A stretch of DNA of 32,187 nucleotides. Source: Streptomycetaceae bacterium. GTDB lineage: Bacteria > Actinomycetota > Actinomycetes > Streptomycetales > Streptomycetaceae. The stretch covers positions 1-32,187 of the forward strand of contig JAFAUH010000188.1 in assembly GCA_019243445.1 (NCBI GenBank), in the 5' to 3' direction. The position numbers and the translations under genes were made by a program. Shown here piece by piece: positions 4,031-20,894 of this stretch. The notes beneath the pieces are model-generated. The model worked only from the letters and a program-made list of their open reading frames with translations, was not told the origin of the DNA and did no database searches. The stretch's first letter is position 1, and every line of letters begins with the position of its first letter.

Positions 4031-4837
4031 TCAAATGACTTCGACACGCTGCAGATGACGCGATGTCGAGCCAGTGAACGCGTTGCGGCCATGGATGAGG
4101 GAGAAGTTGTCGGCGATGACGATGTCGCCCGGCTGCCAGGCATGGGCGTAGCAGTACTGGGGCCGGTGCACCAATTCGCTCATCATGGCGAGGAAGTCGT
4201 CGGTCTCCTCTTGTTGGTTCCCCTCCACAGTAACGAACACGGGGTTCTTGTAGACGGTGGGGTCCAGTGGCTCGGCGAAACGCAGGACGGGCACGCCAGT
4301 ACTCGGGTGCTGGCTGACCAGCTTTTCGGTGATCTGGCCTCCGTAGTGCGCCAACTTCTCCGTCTTATAGGTGAGACTGATGCCCTCCCACTGTCGGCGT
4401 AGGTCCTCGTCAGCATCCCGGTAGACAGCAGTAGTGTCACAGAAGACAGTCTCGCCGCCTGCGTCGAGGGCCGCGTCCAGGCACTGGAAGAAGAAGAATC
4501 GCGGATCGGCCTCGACGAAGGCGCCGTCCCAGTGGAAGGGTACGTCACCGCTGGCGAAGAGGTAGTTCTTGGGTTTGTCCTGGACAACCAGGTCCATCAC
4601 CGCGCCGACTTCCCATTCGAGTAACTCCCCCCAGAGCCGGCAGTAATCGGCGAATTCCTGCTTGCCGAGTATGGAAAAGCCGCGCAGCACCAAGACCCGC
4701 GACTCCTCGGTCCACCTCCTAAGCGTCTGGACCGGTATGTCGGTGATCCGGGTGCCTTCAGGCACCTGGAGGACACGGCCGAAGGGACGGAGCGGGGACT
4801 GGTCCATCATGATGCCGAGCGATGACGATCGGGGCAT
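4031..4837 (-). CDS. Fe(II)/2-oxoglutarate-dependent oxygenase, TauD/PvcB (IsnB)-like
   Basis: 268 residues of the TauD/TfdA clavaminate-synthase fold. The metal triad is visible: H102-W-D104 in VPFHWDGAF and distal H249 in LIHGRNAF, with R260 or R264 as the likely 2-oxoglutarate-binding arginine. GGETVFCDT (127-135) is the usual conserved loop. Next to an isonitrile synthase this is the expected PvcB/IsnB partner, which oxidises the isonitrile amino acid (decarboxylative desaturation to a vinyl isonitrile, or ring formation, in known systems). The ATG at 4837 has AAGGA six bases upstream and overlaps the synthase gene by 31 bp; the alternative ATG at 4810 would overlap its stop as ATGA but has no ribosome site. 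L72 is a TTA codon (4624-4622). Confidence 0.85.
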   Translation of the reverse strand: MPRSSSLGIMMDQSPLRPFGRVLQVPEGTRITDIPVQTLRRWTEESRVLVLRGFSILGKQEFADYCRLWGELLEWEVGAVMDLVVQDKPKNYLFASGDVPFHWDGAFVEADPRFFFFQCLDAALDAGGETVFCDTTAVYRDADEDLRRQWEGISLTYKTEKLAHYGGQITEKLVSQHPSTGVPVLRFAEPLDPTVYKNPVFVTVEGNQQEETDDFLAMMSELVHRPQYCYAHAWQPGDIVIADNFSLIHGRNAFTGSTSRHLQRVEVI

Positions 4838-5946
4838 GTGTGGTCCTTTTCCAAGGGGTTTATGGTGAGGTGCGGAGCCACGAAGTGACTGGGGCGTCCG
4901 TTGCGCCAGACGATGGAGGCACCCACTTCCTCGGCGACCCAGCGCTTGGTCAGGTGCAGCTTGTTGCCGTCGTCAAGCACGGCACTGTGCCACGGAGTCA
5001 GCCAGCTGTCCTTGGTAGGCATGAGCTGTAGGCCTAACTTCTCGGAGTGCGGCGGCTGCGGGTGTATCGACAGCCTTACCGCTTCCGGAAACGTTTCTGC
5101 AATCACTCTGCTCCAGGCGTCACTTCGACGCATTACCTGGTAGGTGGTGGCCTTCGAGTTGTTCCTCAGCTTCGTCTTGGACACTCCTTCATTCTCGCCG
5201 TTGGCCAGCGTGTCCTCGTACACGAAGCGGTGGATTCCGTTGAACATCGAACGGGTGGCGTTGTCGGTGCGAACGCTGTTCCTCATTTCCTCGAGATTCA
5301 CGGCGTAGTCGCGTTCGAGAATCTCTCGCAGCCTCGGGTAATAGTTGCAGCCGAATGCGTCATCCAGCCCGAAAATATCGAGCGATTCCAAGTTCGCTGT
5401 CTTGATGATTTCCGCCAGGCCTTGGCGGTAAGCGGTCGCCGCACTGTCGGTCACCCCAACCACATCACCGAAGACGTGTCCGTCGGAGCATATCGTCACA
5501 CGGGCACCTGGTGAATAGAAATGACTCACGTGGTCGCATATCGACTGCAGGAAGCGCAATGATTCCAGTTCGCCGAGATCCGGTAGAGCGCCCAGTACTT
5601 TTTTCCTGTTGGGTGATTTCGCCGGAAAAGCCGGGATGGCGAAGAGTATTGTTTCGCGGTTCCGGATGAATCGTTCGATCTTTGAGTGTCGTGCCTCGAA
5701 ACACGTCGTGCAGGGATCGAGCAAGGTGCAGGGAACGCGCGACTTTTCTTCGTCCGTGGGCCCCGGTCGATCCACTCGTTGGTGACGGTGGAGCAGTTGG
5801 AAAATCAGGCGAGAGACCCGAGAAATGGAAAGTGATGTACTTTTCGCGTGCAAGCTCGACATATCCCTCATATCTGGTAAAGTAGATGTCCCCATCCTTC
5901 TTCGGCCGGCTTGTTGCCTCCTCATTGACTCATCGACTAGGCGCAC
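4807..5946 (-). CDS. Isonitrile (isocyanide) synthase, PvcA/IsnA/DIT1 family
   Basis: 379 residues, a little longer than usual for PvcA because of an extra 40 or so N-terminal residues. Family hallmarks: AFPAKSPNRKKVLG (106-119), CSDGHVFGD (153-161), RLSIHPQP (291-298) and WHSAVL (319-324). Known members convert the alpha-amino group of L-tyrosine or L-tryptophan to an isonitrile using ribulose-5-phosphate as carbon donor; which amino acid is used here cannot be read from sequence. The GTG at 5946 is chosen because AAGGGGAG lies nine bases upstream; ATGs at 5925 and 5895 are alternatives. A Cys group (C73, C79, C82) precedes the core. Codons 23 and 304 are TTA (5880-5878, 5037-5035). First gene of a two-gene operon with the oxygenase; G+C is visibly lower than in neighbouring genes. 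Confidence 0.88.
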   Translation of the reverse strand: MRLVDESMRRQQAGRRRMGTSTLPDMRDMSSLHAKSTSLSISRVSRLIFQLLHRHQRVDRPGPTDEEKSRVPCTLLDPCTTCFEARHSKIERFIRNRETILFAIPAFPAKSPNRKKVLGALPDLGELESLRFLQSICDHVSHFYSPGARVTICSDGHVFGDVVGVTDSAATAYRQGLAEIIKTANLESLDIFGLDDAFGCNYYPRLREILERDYAVNLEEMRNSVRTDNATRSMFNGIHRFVYEDTLANGENEGVSKTKLRNNSKATTYQVMRRSDAWSRVIAETFPEAVRLSIHPQPPHSEKLGLQLMPTKDSWLTPWHSAVLDDGNKLHLTKRWVAEEVGASIVWRNGRPSHFVAPHLTINPLEKDHTCPDRHRSAS

Positions 5947-6075
5947 TGTTGACTACTCCCCTTCTGGCTCGTTAACCGTGAGTCGACGCGGAAGGCTGCG
6001 GGGATCGCTCCGACTCGTCTGCGCAGCTGAGGCATGGAGCGCACTCGGAGAGTAGTGCGAGTGTCTCGTGCATCC

Positions 6076-6105
6076 ATTACAGAACGCCCCGTGTCGGGCC
6101 CGCAA
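6076..6105 (-). promoter_or_regulatory. Candidate promoter of the isonitrile synthase operon
   Basis: On the minus strand TTGCGG (6105-6100) and TGTAAT (6081-6076) are separated by 18 bases, a fair match to a housekeeping-type promoter. The leader to the GTG at 5946 would be about 120 bases. Pattern match only. Confidence 0.35.
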
Positions 6106-6144
6106 GAAACGTTTTAGGACAGCTTGTGAGCCGCGGCGAAGGTA

Positions 6145-6173
6145 TTGCGAAGCCGGAATGTCCGGTAAATGAT
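6145..6173 (+). promoter_or_regulatory. Candidate promoter with palindromic spacer for the prenyltransferase operon
   Basis: TTGCGA (6145-6150) and AATGAT (6168-6173) are 17 bases apart. The spacer contains the perfect 5-3-5 palindrome CCGGA-ATG-TCCGG (6153-6165), where a repressor would block polymerase. The leader to the small ORF at 6444 would be about 260 bases. Speculative. Confidence 0.3.
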
Positions 6174-6443
6174 CGTTTGGCCTCCGGAGAACCAAGCCGC
6201 CCCCGAGCGATGGGTCGCACAGATCTGTGGAACGGGGCGGACGCGGGTTATGGGGGCCGCCAGGTTTTGAATTCTGTCCGAGATTGGCAGTGGCAGTCAT
6301 GCCAGGTGGTACTGTGCTTCGGCGGCGAGAAGTGAAGCCGTTTTTGGTTTAGGGTACTTGCTGACGATCTGCAAGAGCTTTGGTTTTCCCGGGCACAACT
6401 TTTCTGCTGTTGTCGCCCGTTCTCGAAGCCGAGGAGGGAACTG

Positions 6444-6539
6444 ATGGGCACTGCTGCAAGGCCGGACTGCGGTTCGATGGAATTCTTATCCCTGCTCCCA
6501 TTATCATACGGCGCGCGAACCGGGCGGTGTGAGCAATGA
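6444..6539 (+). CDS. 31-residue leader ORF coupled to the prenyltransferase gene
   Basis: A small ORF with its own strong ribosome site: GAGGAGGG at 6431-6438, five bases before the ATG. It ends with a TGA at 6537-6539 that overlaps the ATG of the prenyltransferase gene (6536) as ATGA. The peptide starts MGTAARPDCG, has a short hydrophobic stretch (FLSLLPLSYG) and no recognisable domain. Codons 15 and 20 are TTA (6486-6488, 6501-6503). The prenyltransferase has no convincing ribosome site of its own and an in-frame stop at 6530-6532 just upstream, so translational coupling through this ORF would explain how it is translated. It may be a true small protein or only a leader whose TTA codons gate the operon. 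Confidence 0.55.
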   Translation: MGTAARPDCGSMEFLSLLPLSYGARTGRCEQ

Positions 6540-7468
6540 CGAAACCTTCGAAGCGGCAGTTCATCCACGATTCCCTCACCATCCGCCGTCCAGAATTCAT
6601 GGTCGCGGAAATTCCTATCGTTATGATCCCGGCGCTGTTGATGGCATCCAACCCATCCCATCTCGTCAGGTGGCAGTTCGCTGCCGCCTTCGCACTCATC
6701 TATCTGACGGCCAATTTTGGCGACATGATCAATTGTCTGGCTGATCGCGACCTTGACGCCGTCTACAAGACCCGGTTATCCAGCGCCGTTTACCGCCTCG
6801 GTGTCGGCAATGTGCGATGGCAGCTGAGGATCACGTGTGCCGCGGTGATTGCCCTTTCACTTCTTTTGGCGGTCGGCACCCGGCACTGGGACCTGATTCC
6901 GCTCGTTGGGGTTGAACTCCTGTGGGTGGCCCAGTACTCGGTGCCTCCGCTGCACTTCAAGAGGCGTGGTCTGTGGCAGATGGTGACTCTGTGCGCGATC
7001 ATTTTTGCGCTGCCCATGACGATCGTGGCACGGACGCTTCCGGGCTATCCGTCTTGGGAACTCCTGCTGTTCTTCGTGGGGTTCGGCACCATGCAGGAGG
7101 GCATCATCCTGGTCAACACGGCGGAGGATATACCCGAGGATCAGCAGGCCGGTCTCCACACATCCGCACTCGTCCTGGGACTGTCCCGCTCGGTGGCGGT
7201 CGGTATCGCTATGGTCGCCATCGGCGGAGCAGCCTGCGCGGCCTGCCTGACAGCCATCGGCAACCCCTCGTGGGGGCTTGCTGTTTTCATGCTCAGCTTG
7301 TTGTGGGTGCTCTGGGAAATGGTCTCGATCTGGCTCCGGGTACGGCGCCAGCCGCTGACGGCAGGAATGGCCATCCTGCGGCCACGAGCTCGCAGGATGC
7401 CGTTGTGGATCACGGCGACCGGATTGAGCGTTTTGCTGACGGCCGGGTTCGTGGTCAGTCACCGCTGA
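6536..7468 (+). CDS. UbiA-superfamily membrane prenyltransferase
   Basis: 310 residues, nearly all hydrophobic helices (about 8-9 membrane segments). The two metal/prenyl-diphosphate motifs are present: N66-C-L-A-D70-R-D-L-D74, matching NDxxDxxxD with Cys for the second residue, and N194-T-A-E-D198-I-P-E-D202. YSVPPLHFKRRG (134-145) is the usual family signature. UbiA enzymes transfer isoprenyl chains to aromatic acceptors in the membrane; some bacterial members act as terpene cyclases. Here the acceptor may be the isonitrile product of the divergent operon; that is inference. The exporter gene follows by 45 bases. L81 is a TTA codon (6776-6778). The start is fixed by an in-frame stop six bases upstream. 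Confidence 0.85.
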   Translation: MTKPSKRQFIHDSLTIRRPEFMVAEIPIVMIPALLMASNPSHLVRWQFAAAFALIYLTANFGDMINCLADRDLDAVYKTRLSSAVYRLGVGNVRWQLRITCAAVIALSLLLAVGTRHWDLIPLVGVELLWVAQYSVPPLHFKRRGLWQMVTLCAIIFALPMTIVARTLPGYPSWELLLFFVGFGTMQEGIILVNTAEDIPEDQQAGLHTSALVLGLSRSVAVGIAMVAIGGAACAACLTAIGNPSWGLAVFMLSLLWVLWEMVSIWLRVRRQPLTAGMAILRPRARRMPLWITATGLSVLLTAGFVVSHR

Positions 7469-7513
7469 CCGCCTGCCTCCACATAGCGCCAGATTCTCTC
7501 CCAAGGAGGCACG

Positions 7514-9751
7514 ATGTTCACTTGGCTCGGCCAGTGGGTCTTACGACGCGCTCGACTGGTCCTGGTGCTCGTAGGTTTGGCCTTGGCCATCGCCACGACA
7601 CTGGCCACCGGTGCCATGGATGTGCTCAAAGTCGGCGGCTTCCTCGATCCCCACGCACAGTCAAGCCAGGTCACCCAGCTCATCGATACCCAGTTCGGCG
7701 GGAAGGTGAACCTGGTCTTCCTGGTCGAGGCCTCCCACGGTTCGGTGGACTCGCCCGCAGTACGGTGGGCCGGACAACGGCTCACCGGTCAGCTGGCCAG
7801 GGAGCCGGTTCTCACCAATGTGACTTCCTACTGGTCCGTCGGCAACCCGGCATTGAAGTCGGCCGACGGCAGATACGCGGTCATCGCCGCCCACCTCAGC
7901 GGGGATGAGAACACCGCTTTGCACCGCACCCTGCACCTCCACGACAAATACGCGGGCACCACCGGCCCGTTGAAGGTAGCACTGGGTGGCTGGCAGGGTG
8001 TCTACCGGGACATTTTTGTCAACGTTACGAAGAGTCTGGTGCTCGCCGAGACGATCGCCGTCCCGCTCACCCTGATCCTGCTGCTGGTCGTCTTCGGCAA
8101 TGTGGTATCGGCTCTGCTGCCGCTGGCCATCGGAATCTCCGCCATCGTCGGCACCTTCGGCCTGCTGCGCGTCCTGGGCAGCGTCTCGGACGTTTCGATC
8201 TTCGCCGCCAACGTCACCACCGCCCTCGGCCTTGGCCTGGGCATTGACTATGCCCTGCTGATCGTAGCCCGGTTCAGCGAACGCCTGGCCGCGGGCGACG
8301 AGGTACCGCAAGCCCTCCAGCACACCGTAAGCACGGCGGGGCGCACCATTTTCTTCTCCGCGACCATCGTCATGGCGGCCCTGGCCGCCATGCTGGTCTT
8401 CCCGCTGTACTTCCTGCGCTCGTTGGCCTACGCGGGCATGGGTGTCGTGGCCATCGCCGCCCTCGCCGCGCTGTTCGTCGCGCCGGCTCTGCTGGCGCTG
8501 CTCGGGCACCGGGTCAACCCTGGACGGCGCCGGGTAAAAGGTGGACGGCACCGGGCCATGAGGGGCCGGCACCGCACCACAGTTGGACGACTGCCGCGGA
8601 TGCGAGGCATTCAAGGCAGCGACACGCCGTTTTGGGCGTGGCTGGCGCGCGGAGTGAGCCGTCGACCGGTGATCACCACGCTCCCGGTGGTCGCGGCCCT
8701 GCTACTGGCGGCCAGTCCACTGCTGGGGGTTGTGTTCGGCACGCCAGACGAGCGGGTACTCAAGTCAGACGTGACCAGTCGACAGGTCACCACCATCCTC
8801 GATAAGGAGTTCAAGGGGATCGGCAGCGACACGGTAGAGGTAGTCGTCACGCCGCGAGTGAAAGACGCAGCACTCGCGGCGTACGCGTGGCGGCTGTCCC
8901 GACAGCCGGACGTCACTGCTGTGACCAGCAGCGTTGGTATCTACGCCGGAGGGCAGCAGGTATCCGGCCAGGCCGATCAGCGGCGGAGCAGTGCCCAAGC
9001 GCAGTGGCTGTCCGTCTCCACCGGTCTGGTGCAGAAGTCCGAACGGGCACTCGGTCTCGTCCAGCGGATCCGGGACGCGGCTGGCCCGGCGAGCACCCGG
9101 ATCTTTGTCGGCGGCACCGATGCCGAATTGATGGACACCCGGTCGGCCATCGGCTCCCGGCTGCCCCTTGCTGCTGCGATCATCATCGTCACCACCTTCG
9201 CGGTGCTCTTTTTGTTCACCGGAAGCCTGTTGCAGCCATTGCGTGCTCTGCTGCTCAACGGACTGGTGTTGGCCTCCACGCTCGGCGCGATGGTGTGGAT
9301 CTTCCAGCGGGGCCATCTGAAGAACGTGCTGGGTTTCACACCACAGCCGACCGACGCCACGGTGGCGGTCCTCATCTTTTGCGTGCTGTTCGGGCTCTCC
9401 ATGGACTATGAGGTATTCGTAGTGGCCCGCATCAAGGAGATGAGGCAGGGGGGTCTGGACACCGCGGCGGCGGTCGAGAGAGGGCTGGCGAAGACCGGCC
9501 GGATCGTCTCGACCGCCGCTGGACTGCTGGCGGTGAGCTTTCTGGCGTTCGTCAGTAGTTCGATAAATTTCATACAAATGTTTGGACTGGGTGCGGGATT
9601 GGCGATCCTCCTGGACGCGGCCATCGTCCGCGGAGTACTGGTGCCAGGGGCGTTCGCGCTGATGGGGAGGGCGGCTTGGTGGGCCCCTGGTTGGCTACGC
9701 GGTGTCGGGGACCGTTTCGCCCTGGTCGAGGAGGTGCCGGCCTCTTCTTGA
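7514..9751 (+). CDS. MMPL/RND-family transporter
   Basis: 745 residues with the MmpL layout: one N-terminal helix, a large extracytoplasmic domain (about 40-165), five helices, a cytoplasmic linker, then a second repeat of helix, domain and five helices. The proton-relay signatures are present in both halves: GLGIDYALLIVARF (about 238-251) and FGLSMDYEVFVVARIKE (about 619-635). Actinobacterial MmpL proteins export lipids and hydrophobic metabolites; its place 45 bases after a prenyltransferase suggests export or self-protection for the locus product. The ATG has AAGGAGG five bases upstream. Codon 10 is TTA (7541-7543). The linker after the sixth helix carries four basic heptad repeats (GRRRVKG, GRHRAMR, GRHRTTV, GRLPRMR). 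The 3' end overlaps the convergent gene by 57 bp. Confidence 0.9.
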   Translation: MFTWLGQWVLRRARLVLVLVGLALAIATTLATGAMDVLKVGGFLDPHAQSSQVTQLIDTQFGGKVNLVFLVEASHGSVDSPAVRWAGQRLTGQLAREPVLTNVTSYWSVGNPALKSADGRYAVIAAHLSGDENTALHRTLHLHDKYAGTTGPLKVALGGWQGVYRDIFVNVTKSLVLAETIAVPLTLILLLVVFGNVVSALLPLAIGISAIVGTFGLLRVLGSVSDVSIFAANVTTALGLGLGIDYALLIVARFSERLAAGDEVPQALQHTVSTAGRTIFFSATIVMAALAAMLVFPLYFLRSLAYAGMGVVAIAALAALFVAPALLALLGHRVNPGRRRVKGGRHRAMRGRHRTTVGRLPRMRGIQGSDTPFWAWLARGVSRRPVITTLPVVAALLLAASPLLGVVFGTPDERVLKSDVTSRQVTTILDKEFKGIGSDTVEVVVTPRVKDAALAAYAWRLSRQPDVTAVTSSVGIYAGGQQVSGQADQRRSSAQAQWLSVSTGLVQKSERALGLVQRIRDAAGPASTRIFVGGTDAELMDTRSAIGSRLPLAAAIIIVTTFAVLFLFTGSLLQPLRALLLNGLVLASTLGAMVWIFQRGHLKNVLGFTPQPTDATVAVLIFCVLFGLSMDYEVFVVARIKEMRQGGLDTAAAVERGLAKTGRIVSTAAGLLAVSFLAFVSSSINFIQMFGLGAGLAILLDAAIVRGVLVPGAFALMGRAAWWAPGWLRGVGDRFALVEEVPASS
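8521..8604 (+). repeat. 21-bp imperfect tandem repeat inside the exporter gene
   Basis: Four consecutive 21-bp units (starting at 8521, 8542, 8563, 8584) begin TGGACGGC/GGGCCGGC/TGGACGAC and encode seven-residue units each starting Gly-Arg. The copies have diverged but period and frame are kept, giving a strongly basic segment of about 28 residues in the cytoplasmic linker between the two transporter halves. Confidence 0.65.
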
Positions 9752-19152: not shown

Positions 19153-20793
19153 TTACATCGCCGGCCCGGCAGGTACCATCGAGATCAACCCATCGGTGAG
19201 GAACTCCACGACTGCGGGGCCGTCGGCGTCAAGCGCACGCCGCCATGCCCCCGCCACCTCATCCGCTTCCGTCACCCGGATCCCGGTGAGGCCGAGCGAG
19301 GCCGCGAAAGCGGCGTAGGAGACATCCGGGGCTTTCCCGACCTCAGGGGCTGTACGGCAGGGGCTGCGCTCGTTCCAGACGCCGATCACCAGCCGCGGGT
19401 CCTTCCACGCATCCCGGTACTGTGCCGCCGTGATCAGCTCGGCGAGGCCACTCATCTGCATGGCCTCCTCCCCGACCAGCGCGATCGCCGGCCGGTGAGG
19501 ACAGGCGAACTTCGCGCCGATGGCGTACGGTACGCCGCTTCCCGTCGACGCCAACGTCCCGGAGAGCGAAGCCCGCATCGTCCCGCGCATCCGCAGATGG
19601 CGCGCGTACCAGGTGGCGACAGGACCCGGGTCACAGGTGATGACCGCATCCTCGGGCAGCAGCGGATCCAGCGCGCGCGCCACCAACTCGGGGTTGATCG
19701 CCTCCGTCGGCAGCCCGGCGCGCTGTTCCATCTCGCTCTGCCAGCGCTCGGCGTCGGCAATCACCTGTTCTTGCCAGCGGCGGTCGGCCTTGCGCCGCAG
19801 CTTGGGCAGCAGTCGCAGCAGCGTGATGCGGGCGTCACCGACGAGGTTCACCTCATAGGGGTATCCCATCCCGACCGTGTGCGGATCGATGTCGATCTGG
19901 ACGCCGCGCGCTCTCCCGAACGTCGGCAGGTATCGGGTGTAGGGGAAGTCGGAGCCCACCGTCAGCAGCGTGTCGCAGCCGCGCATCAGCTCATACGCCG
20001 ACCGAGTGCCGAGCATGCCGATCAGCCCGCTGACGCAAGGGAGTTCATCGCTGAGTACGTCCTTGCCGAGCAGCGCCTTGGCTACTCCGGCAGCCAGGAC
20101 ATCGGCTACCTGCTCGACCTCGGCGCGCGCTCCGGCGGCACCCTGTCCGACCAAAATGGCCACTTTACGGCCGGAATTGAGCACTTCGGCGGCGTGTTCA
20201 AGTGCGTCACTGTCCGGCATAGGCGCCCACTGTTCGGTGCCGACGCCGACGACGTCCATCGTGAACTCGCGCGCGGAGGGGGCGTAGTCGGCGAACTGCA
20301 GCTCCGCCGGGACGATCACGACGGCCGGGCAGCGGCGGCCGTTCGCGGTGCGGATGGCTCGGTCGAGCACATCGGGCAGCCGATCGGGGACGGAGACCGT
20401 CTCGAGGAAGTCGGCGGCCACGTCTTTGAACAGGGCGTGCAGATCGACGTCCCGCCGGTACGGGCCGCCCGTCGCGCCGCGGTCGGCGTGGCCGACGATC
20501 GTCACCAGCGGCACATGATCGAGTTTCGCGTCGTACATTCCCCCCAACAGGTGGATGGCGCCTGGCCCCGAAGTTGCCGTGCACACCCCCGTCAGACCGC
20601 TGAACTTCGCATAGCCCACAGCCTGGAACGCACACGACTCCTCATGGCGGGCCCGGACGAGCCGCGGATCGTTCCCTGCTTTGGGCCAGGCAGTGAGCAG
20701 CCCGTTGATCCCCTCGCCGGCATGACCGAAGACGTGGGTGACACCCCACTCCCGCAACCGGGTGAGGATGTGGTCAGCCACTGTGGTACTCAT
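19153..20793 (-). CDS. ThDP-dependent enzyme of the pyruvate oxidase/acetolactate synthase family
   Basis: 546 residues with the three-domain layout: PYR (about 1-175), central (about 185-330) and PP (about 365-540). The catalytic glutamate E51 is in RHEESCAF, and SGPGAIHLLGG is the usual loop. Relatives are PoxB-like pyruvate dehydrogenases and acetolactate synthase-like proteins; the substrate is not readable. Odd: the ThDP/Mg motif GDG...NN reads G441-E-E...N474-E here, so the metal Asp is Glu and the second Asn is Glu, and the loop after NE is shortened. It may still bind Mg through Glu, or be impaired. The ATG at 20793 overlaps a leader ORF stop as ATGA. Confidence 0.85.
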   Translation of the reverse strand: MSTTVADHILTRLREWGVTHVFGHAGEGINGLLTAWPKAGNDPRLVRARHEESCAFQAVGYAKFSGLTGVCTATSGPGAIHLLGGMYDAKLDHVPLVTIVGHADRGATGGPYRRDVDLHALFKDVAADFLETVSVPDRLPDVLDRAIRTANGRRCPAVVIVPAELQFADYAPSAREFTMDVVGVGTEQWAPMPDSDALEHAAEVLNSGRKVAILVGQGAAGARAEVEQVADVLAAGVAKALLGKDVLSDELPCVSGLIGMLGTRSAYELMRGCDTLLTVGSDFPYTRYLPTFGRARGVQIDIDPHTVGMGYPYEVNLVGDARITLLRLLPKLRRKADRRWQEQVIADAERWQSEMEQRAGLPTEAINPELVARALDPLLPEDAVITCDPGPVATWYARHLRMRGTMRASLSGTLASTGSGVPYAIGAKFACPHRPAIALVGEEAMQMSGLAELITAAQYRDAWKDPRLVIGVWNERSPCRTAPEVGKAPDVSYAAFAASLGLTGIRVTEADEVAGAWRRALDADGPAVVEFLTDGLISMVPAGPAM

Positions 20794-20894
20794 GCGCTGT
20801 CCTCGCTGTCCTCGCTGTCCTCGCTGTCCTCGCTGCGCTCGGCTGCGCCTTCGCACGGTGCGCACCTTTCGCTGCGCTCGATTCGCTCGCTCAT
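20790..20894 (-). CDS. 34-residue leader ORF with Ser-Glu-Asp repeats, coupled to the ThDP enzyme
   Basis: GAGGAGG lies seven bases before the ATG at 20894. The peptide is strongly charged: MSERIERSERCAPCEGAAER, then four Ser-Glu-Asp triplets. It includes a CxxC pair (CAPC). The TGA at 20792-20790 overlaps the ATG of the ThDP enzyme (20793-20791) as ATGA. The ribosome site is much better than any internal one, so coupled translation is plausible. Against it, this Arg/Ser/Glu composition also arises from GC-rich repetitive DNA, so the peptide itself may be functionless. Confidence 0.45.
   Translation of the reverse strand: MSERIERSERCAPCEGAAERSEDSEDSEDSEDSA
20797..20832. repeat. 9-bp tandem repeat at the ThDP enzyme start
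   Basis: Four identical units of CTGTCCTCG on the plus strand; on the minus strand each supplies a GAGGA ribosome-site-like core. They encode the Ser-Glu-Asp repeats of the leader ORF. The unit adjacent to the start puts GAGGA about seven bases before the ATG at 20793. Confidence 0.85.

Follow-up and report, generated by a model that had tools for sequence, protein, structure and literature searches.

A TTA-containing short ORF that overlaps a UbiA-family prenyltransferase start: a putative ribosome-delivering leader beside divergent isonitrile genes

How do ribosomes reach a prenyltransferase gene whose start is weakly marked, and does a short upstream ORF with two TTA codons place that gene under bldA control? 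The locus lies within a 32,187-nucleotide contig of a Streptomycetaceae bacterium (hereafter the window), in which a first-pass annotation had described a bldA-gated coupling switch: ribosomes would pass from a 31-codon leader ORF to the prenyltransferase, and those stalled on TTA would not arrive. Dependence on bldA is usually assigned from TTA codons within annotated genes, and lists built in that way would miss targets if UUA codons can also sit in short leaders that are not annotated. We propose, with a probability of roughly 0.58, that the leader is a translated cistron that brings ribosomes to the prenyltransferase start and stands in for an upstream partner gene.

A strong ribosome site and an ATGA overlap

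The leader ORF spans positions 6444 to 6539 of the forward strand, stop codon included, and its 31 codons read MGTAARPDCGSMEFLSLLPLSYGARTGRCEQ from the ATG at 6444. Its Shine-Dalgarno sequence (SD), GAGGAGGG, lies at 6431-6438 and is followed by the five-base spacer AACTG. Two TTA codons occur, at codon 15 (6486-6488) and codon 20 (6501-6503), and the TGA at 6537-6539 overlaps the prenyltransferase ATG at 6536-6538 as ATGA (6536-6539; AUGA in the mRNA), with the two genes out of frame with each other. Sequence and translation agree with the original description on each of these points. The downstream gene encodes a UbiA-family prenyltransferase of 310 amino acids (6536-7468, forward strand; Pfam PF01040, E 1.8e-18). 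Its start is well defined by an in-frame TGA at 6530-6532 and by the position of the following in-frame ATG, which falls within the conserved motif PEFMVAEI.

SD strength was scored as the computed duplex energy with what we take to be the 16S tail sequence. The leader site scores -12.1 kcal/mol, the prenyltransferase -7.1 and the exporter gene that follows -11.2. The earlier claim that the prenyltransferase has no ribosome site of its own is thus slightly too strong, as a bulged site, GGGCGGTG, is present at 6522-6529; it is nonetheless weak, and 8.0% of 6,000 ATGs from the same genome reach -7. The leader site, on the other hand, ranks first among the 21 ATG or GTG sites in 5947-6535 (runner-up, -7.2). 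Of those 6,000 ATGs, sampled from the 7,015 present in 331,929 bases, 0.18% pair at -12 or better, as does 1 of 1,942 ATGs when intergenic DNA is shuffled. When the 300 upstream bases were shuffled with dinucleotides preserved, a strict layout (ATG, at least 6 contiguous SD bases, at least 20 codons, an end exactly in ATGA) recurred in 0.4% of 10,000 shuffles, or 0.9% with GTG allowed, and a looser one (5 SD bases, 15 codons) in 4.3% of 5,000, all of these being post hoc tests of a feature that had been picked first. Because these shuffle frequencies and duplex rates are low, the leader initiation site is beyond chance.

Under the proposed mechanism, ribosomes would load at GAGGAGGG, translate the leader, terminate at the TGA within the overlap and restart on the prenyltransferase ATG. 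Short, SD-led ORFs that end near an SD-poor start are not peculiar to this locus. A census of 60 stretches (1.13 Mb; 788 predicted genes, comprising 250 from the same genome, 238 from G339 and 300 from G361) returned 16 candidates, with genes called by a crude, home-made finder whose starts are uncertain. The exact one-base-offset overlap is seen in 8 of the 16, and six have no alternative start with a better site while the other ten do; none contains TTA. The leader arrangement is therefore not rare, and its TTA content is. A second case in the window, on the reverse strand at 20793, is an SD-led ORF of 34 codons (duplex -11.6, no TTA) that overlaps, again as ATGA, a likely start of the 570-amino-acid ORF at 19153-20865.

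The peptide itself is less convincing. G+C at codon positions 1/2/3 is.55/.61/.61 in the leader versus.60/.47/.76 in the prenyltransferase gene, a profile without codon-position bias, and the codon-usage log-likelihood ratio of -5.27 is lower than that of every one of 155 in-frame 31-codon windows taken from the cluster genes, and matches the mid-range of 401 intergenic open windows of equal length. NCBIfam holds no family matching the peptide, tblastn against twelve loci (L001-L012) found the peptide in the window itself (L001) and nowhere else, and a blastn search of plasmids with the 100 bases surrounding the leader produced a single chance match (E 0.8). The leader is thus probably not a protein under selection, and its amino acid sequence probably does not matter.

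Such non-coding-like codon usage, the missing homologue and the weak site of the prenyltransferase count against a translated leader; the codon usage, the lack of codon-position bias and the weak site also favour a chance ORF. The prenyltransferase might then be started at its own -7.1 kcal/mol site, or its mRNA might begin near 6515-6536 and be leaderless or carry only a short 5' leader; translation of the leader frame would be of no consequence, and its TTA codons would reflect AT-rich DNA, possibly including a -10 element (TATCAT at 6502, which fits TANNNT). In S. coelicolor, about 21% of primary transcription start sites are reported to yield leaderless mRNAs (PMC4895711). TATCAT, however, is without a -35-like partner: no promoter pairing TANNNT with a -35 of 4/6 or better was found on the forward strand of 5901-6560, a result that also weighs against the leader reading. 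Given a ribosome site far above chance and an exact ATGA overlap, we regard the chance ORF as unlikely.

A probable upstream source of ribosomes in relatives

In the window, the prenyltransferase and the exporter are transcribed divergently from two isonitrile genes on the reverse strand. These encode an isonitrile synthase of the DIT1/PvcA family (4807-5946; Pfam PF05141, E 1.4e-74; TTA at codons 23 and 304 counted from GTG 5946) and a TauD-family dioxygenase (4031-4837; Pfam PF02668, E 5.8e-46). The start of the synthase is uncertain, either GTG 5946 (duplex -8.8; TTA at codon 23) or ATG 5862, which would leave the codon-23 TTA in an untranslated leader. An ATG at 4810 of the dioxygenase would overlap the synthase stop as ATGA; because its SD is almost nil (-1.7), these two genes may be coupled as well. 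The divergent intergenic region also contains a perfect inverted repeat (TGGCA-GTCA-TGCCA, 6291-6304) that is a possible operator. The cluster as a whole (4031-9751) has a G+C content of 61.7% versus 67.0% in 331,929 sampled genome bases.

Related loci serve the prenyltransferase differently. Dioxygenase and prenyltransferase share one open frame in four myxobacterial or deltaproteobacterial metagenome-assembled genomes (L002, L003, L004 and L005), and a single annotated CDS (5224-6990) covers both on a Hymenobacter plasmid (L010). Fusion in these five relatives suggests a bifunctional enzyme in a prenylated-isonitrile pathway. In L007, the sequence has the two genes overlapping. In L011 and L013, near-identical loci that amount to one observation, the stop of an upstream gene is followed directly by the prenyltransferase start (TGA-TC-ATG), and the duplex is only -1.9; the upstream gene has a motif that we take to be that of an FAD-dependent oxidoreductase, i.e., a flavoprotein. 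The prenyltransferases of this pair, at 63% identity, are the only near relatives in the genomes searched, and a 13-row tree groups the window with them (support 100/99). At the margins of the set, L006 has an isonitrile synthase nearby only as a chance-level match, and the UbiA genes of L009/L012 and L014-L017 are distant, at about 30% identity.

The prenyltransferase is sparsely distributed. It was found in one of two genomes of the genus (the source genome only), three of 394 of the family at E 1e-15 (source genome included), one of 394 of the class at 1e-25 (again the source genome), seven of 392 from the genus of G339 at 1e-25, and two of 392 from the genus of G794 at 1e-40, the last pair already known from other draws and the draw itself largely overlapping an earlier one. 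No relative in these searches has the divergent arrangement.

Since the upstream gene is fused to, overlaps or abuts the prenyltransferase in relatives, the enzyme usually seems to be supplied with ribosomes from upstream. We infer that the operon was split here, and that the leader now occupies the place of the usual partner: a dioxygenase or flavoprotein gene in relatives would be replaced by the leader, with the isonitrile synthase and dioxygenase on the other strand. The locus would thereby show an enzyme gene regaining a source of ribosomes after an operon split. Termination-reinitiation coupling from leader to prenyltransferase is likely on these grounds, i.e., upstream service in relatives, a leader in the partner's position and the precedent of uPPE2-PPE2 discussed below. 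This portion of the first-pass annotation, coupling, accords with the gene order of relatives, with a leader site that is strong where that of the prenyltransferase is weak, and with the ATGA overlap.

The same position invites another explanation, that the leader specifies a small protein with a function of its own or is what remains of an upstream gene since lost. A remnant of the L011 flavoprotein gene was considered and rejected, as no similarity was detected (the top tblastn match has E 0.18 and lies on the opposite strand). With neither a homologue of the peptide in NCBIfam or, beyond the window, in L001-L012 nor gene-like codon usage, we consider a functional product or remnant the remotest of the explanations weighed here.

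TTA codons and the extent of bldA control

The second portion of the original claim, gating by bldA, concerns the TTA codons. The genome carries a tRNA-Leu(taa) gene, reading UUA (L055; G000:C2), and in the genome sample that includes the window, TTA occurs in 22 of 261 predicted genes and accounts for 24 of 94,137 codons. Against this background, two TTA in 31 codons appear striking (P of at least two, 2.9e-5), and they remain so at the rate of the cluster genes (P = 0.0038). At the TTA rate of neighbouring intergenic DNA, which is the fair comparison because the leader is non-coding-like, P is 0.039. The two leader TTA are therefore only mildly unusual given base composition and are not, on their own, beyond chance. 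Each of the four cluster genes also holds a TTA, four seen versus 8.8 expected from base composition if the reverse-strand starts are taken as 5862 and 4810.

If the leader is translated, its two UUA codons would keep prenyltransferase output low whenever charged tRNA-Leu(UAA) is in short supply. They would add to bldA dependence rather than create it, because the prenyltransferase gene already contains a UUA (codon 81, 6776-6778). The exporter is a further case. This MMPL-family protein of 745 amino acids (7514-9751, forward strand; Pfam PF03176, E 2.5e-64) starts 45 nt past the prenyltransferase stop, carries a TTA itself, at codon 10 (7541-7543), and is preceded by AAGGAGG at 7503-7509 (duplex -11.2 kcal/mol). 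The suggestion that the leader also controls the exporter consequently finds no support. A bldA effect on both proteins is expected even without the leader, since both genes carry their own TTA.

A dedicated switch, in which the two UUA were selected as a bldA gate on the prenyltransferase and, by polarity, on the exporter, is possible. It would draw on the density of TTA in the leader relative to the 261 predicted genes, on the absence of TTA from all 16 other leader candidates, on the tRNA gene and on the polarity described for SCO6638-SCO6637. The gate would nevertheless be redundant here because prenyltransferase and exporter carry TTA themselves, the exporter has a strong site, and the base-composition figures (four versus 8.8 in the cluster; P = 0.039 in leader-like DNA) mean that selection on the leader TTA need not be invoked. 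We hold such a switch to be quite improbable. Alternatively, the leader alone could act as a cis bldA gate, a non-conserved ORF recruited in place of the lost upstream cistron when the operon split, working through termination-reinitiation and independent of the TTA in the enzyme gene, which we judge improbable. Any gate, moreover, need not be tight, as UUA mistranslation is possible in bldA mutants (PMC4932002). Our search of the open-access literature found no bldA-gated leader ORF; the wider lesson for lists of bldA-dependent genes is weakened at this locus, where the enzyme and exporter genes already carry TTA.

Finally, UUA stalling could act with the opposite sign, as in erm-type translational attenuation, with a ribosome stalled in the leader freeing the prenyltransferase start from a hairpin. 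The computed cost of opening 6521-6541 does fall from 15.0 to 11.7 kcal/mol with a ribosome at codon 15 and to 8.3 kcal/mol at codon 20, but blocking adjacent bases lowers opening costs anyway, and the drop was computed without a shuffled control. Predicted folding of the 201-nt region is no more stable than that of its shuffles (z = 0.53), a search of 5000-8000 gave no Rfam match at E up to 1, and the sole terminator-like site in 5700-7000 is on the reverse strand. Neither hallmark of a ribosome-mediated attenuator, a terminator or an SD-sequestering hairpin with an alternative fold, was thus recovered from these regions. Since the enzyme's own UUA would also cancel the gain, we consider an attenuator highly improbable.

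Comparison with known systems

The proposed translated leader can be set beside four kinds of described systems. In the ermBL-ermB type (PMC8274638), stalling in a short leader changes expression of the next gene. The locus here differs in having no supported alternative hairpin, and stalling would lower coupled translation. Leader genes surveyed by Korolev et al. likewise lie beside structural gene starts in Actinobacteria and would feed them by reinitiation, and the authors expect stalling at regulatory codons to lower it (PMC4833913). Those pairs are non-overlapping, whereas the present pair overlaps; in that survey, the favoured distance is 10-11 bp, the distance peak is least for UGA stops among the groups compared, and overlapping leaders are not counted. 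The preferred distance and the weak UGA peak count against the leader reading.

In S. coelicolor, the TTA-bearing gene SCO6638 has a stop that overlaps the start of SCO6637, and both genes fall in a bldA mutant, SCO6637 at the level of RNA and protein; UUA stalling and polarity are suggested by the authors (PMC2000904). The present locus shares the TTA in the upstream cistron and the stop/start overlap, in a genome with a UUA-reading tRNA gene. The upstream gene there has a detected protein, whereas a 31-codon ORF without homologues takes its place here. In a downstream gene free of TTA, any effect would have to arise through polarity, a consideration that belongs to this analysis and not to that paper; the prenyltransferase, with TTA at codon 81, is a different case.

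The M. tuberculosis gene PPE2 is described as SD-less and has an AUGA overlap with the upstream ORF uPPE2, on whose translation its expression depends, mostly via termination-reinitiation (PMC11260477). Both loci feature a short, out-of-frame upstream ORF and an AUGA overlap, and the leader here has a strong SD. The prenyltransferase start has a weak, bulged site (-7.1 kcal/mol). The loci differ in that a B12 riboswitch controls the uORF there while no Rfam family matched 5000-8000 here, and that two UUA codons are special to the present leader; the dependence was tested for PPE2 and is proposed for the prenyltransferase. Overall, the arrangement is a putative variant of these known kinds, in which a TTA-bearing leader would pass its ribosomes to a prenyltransferase start across an AUGA overlap.
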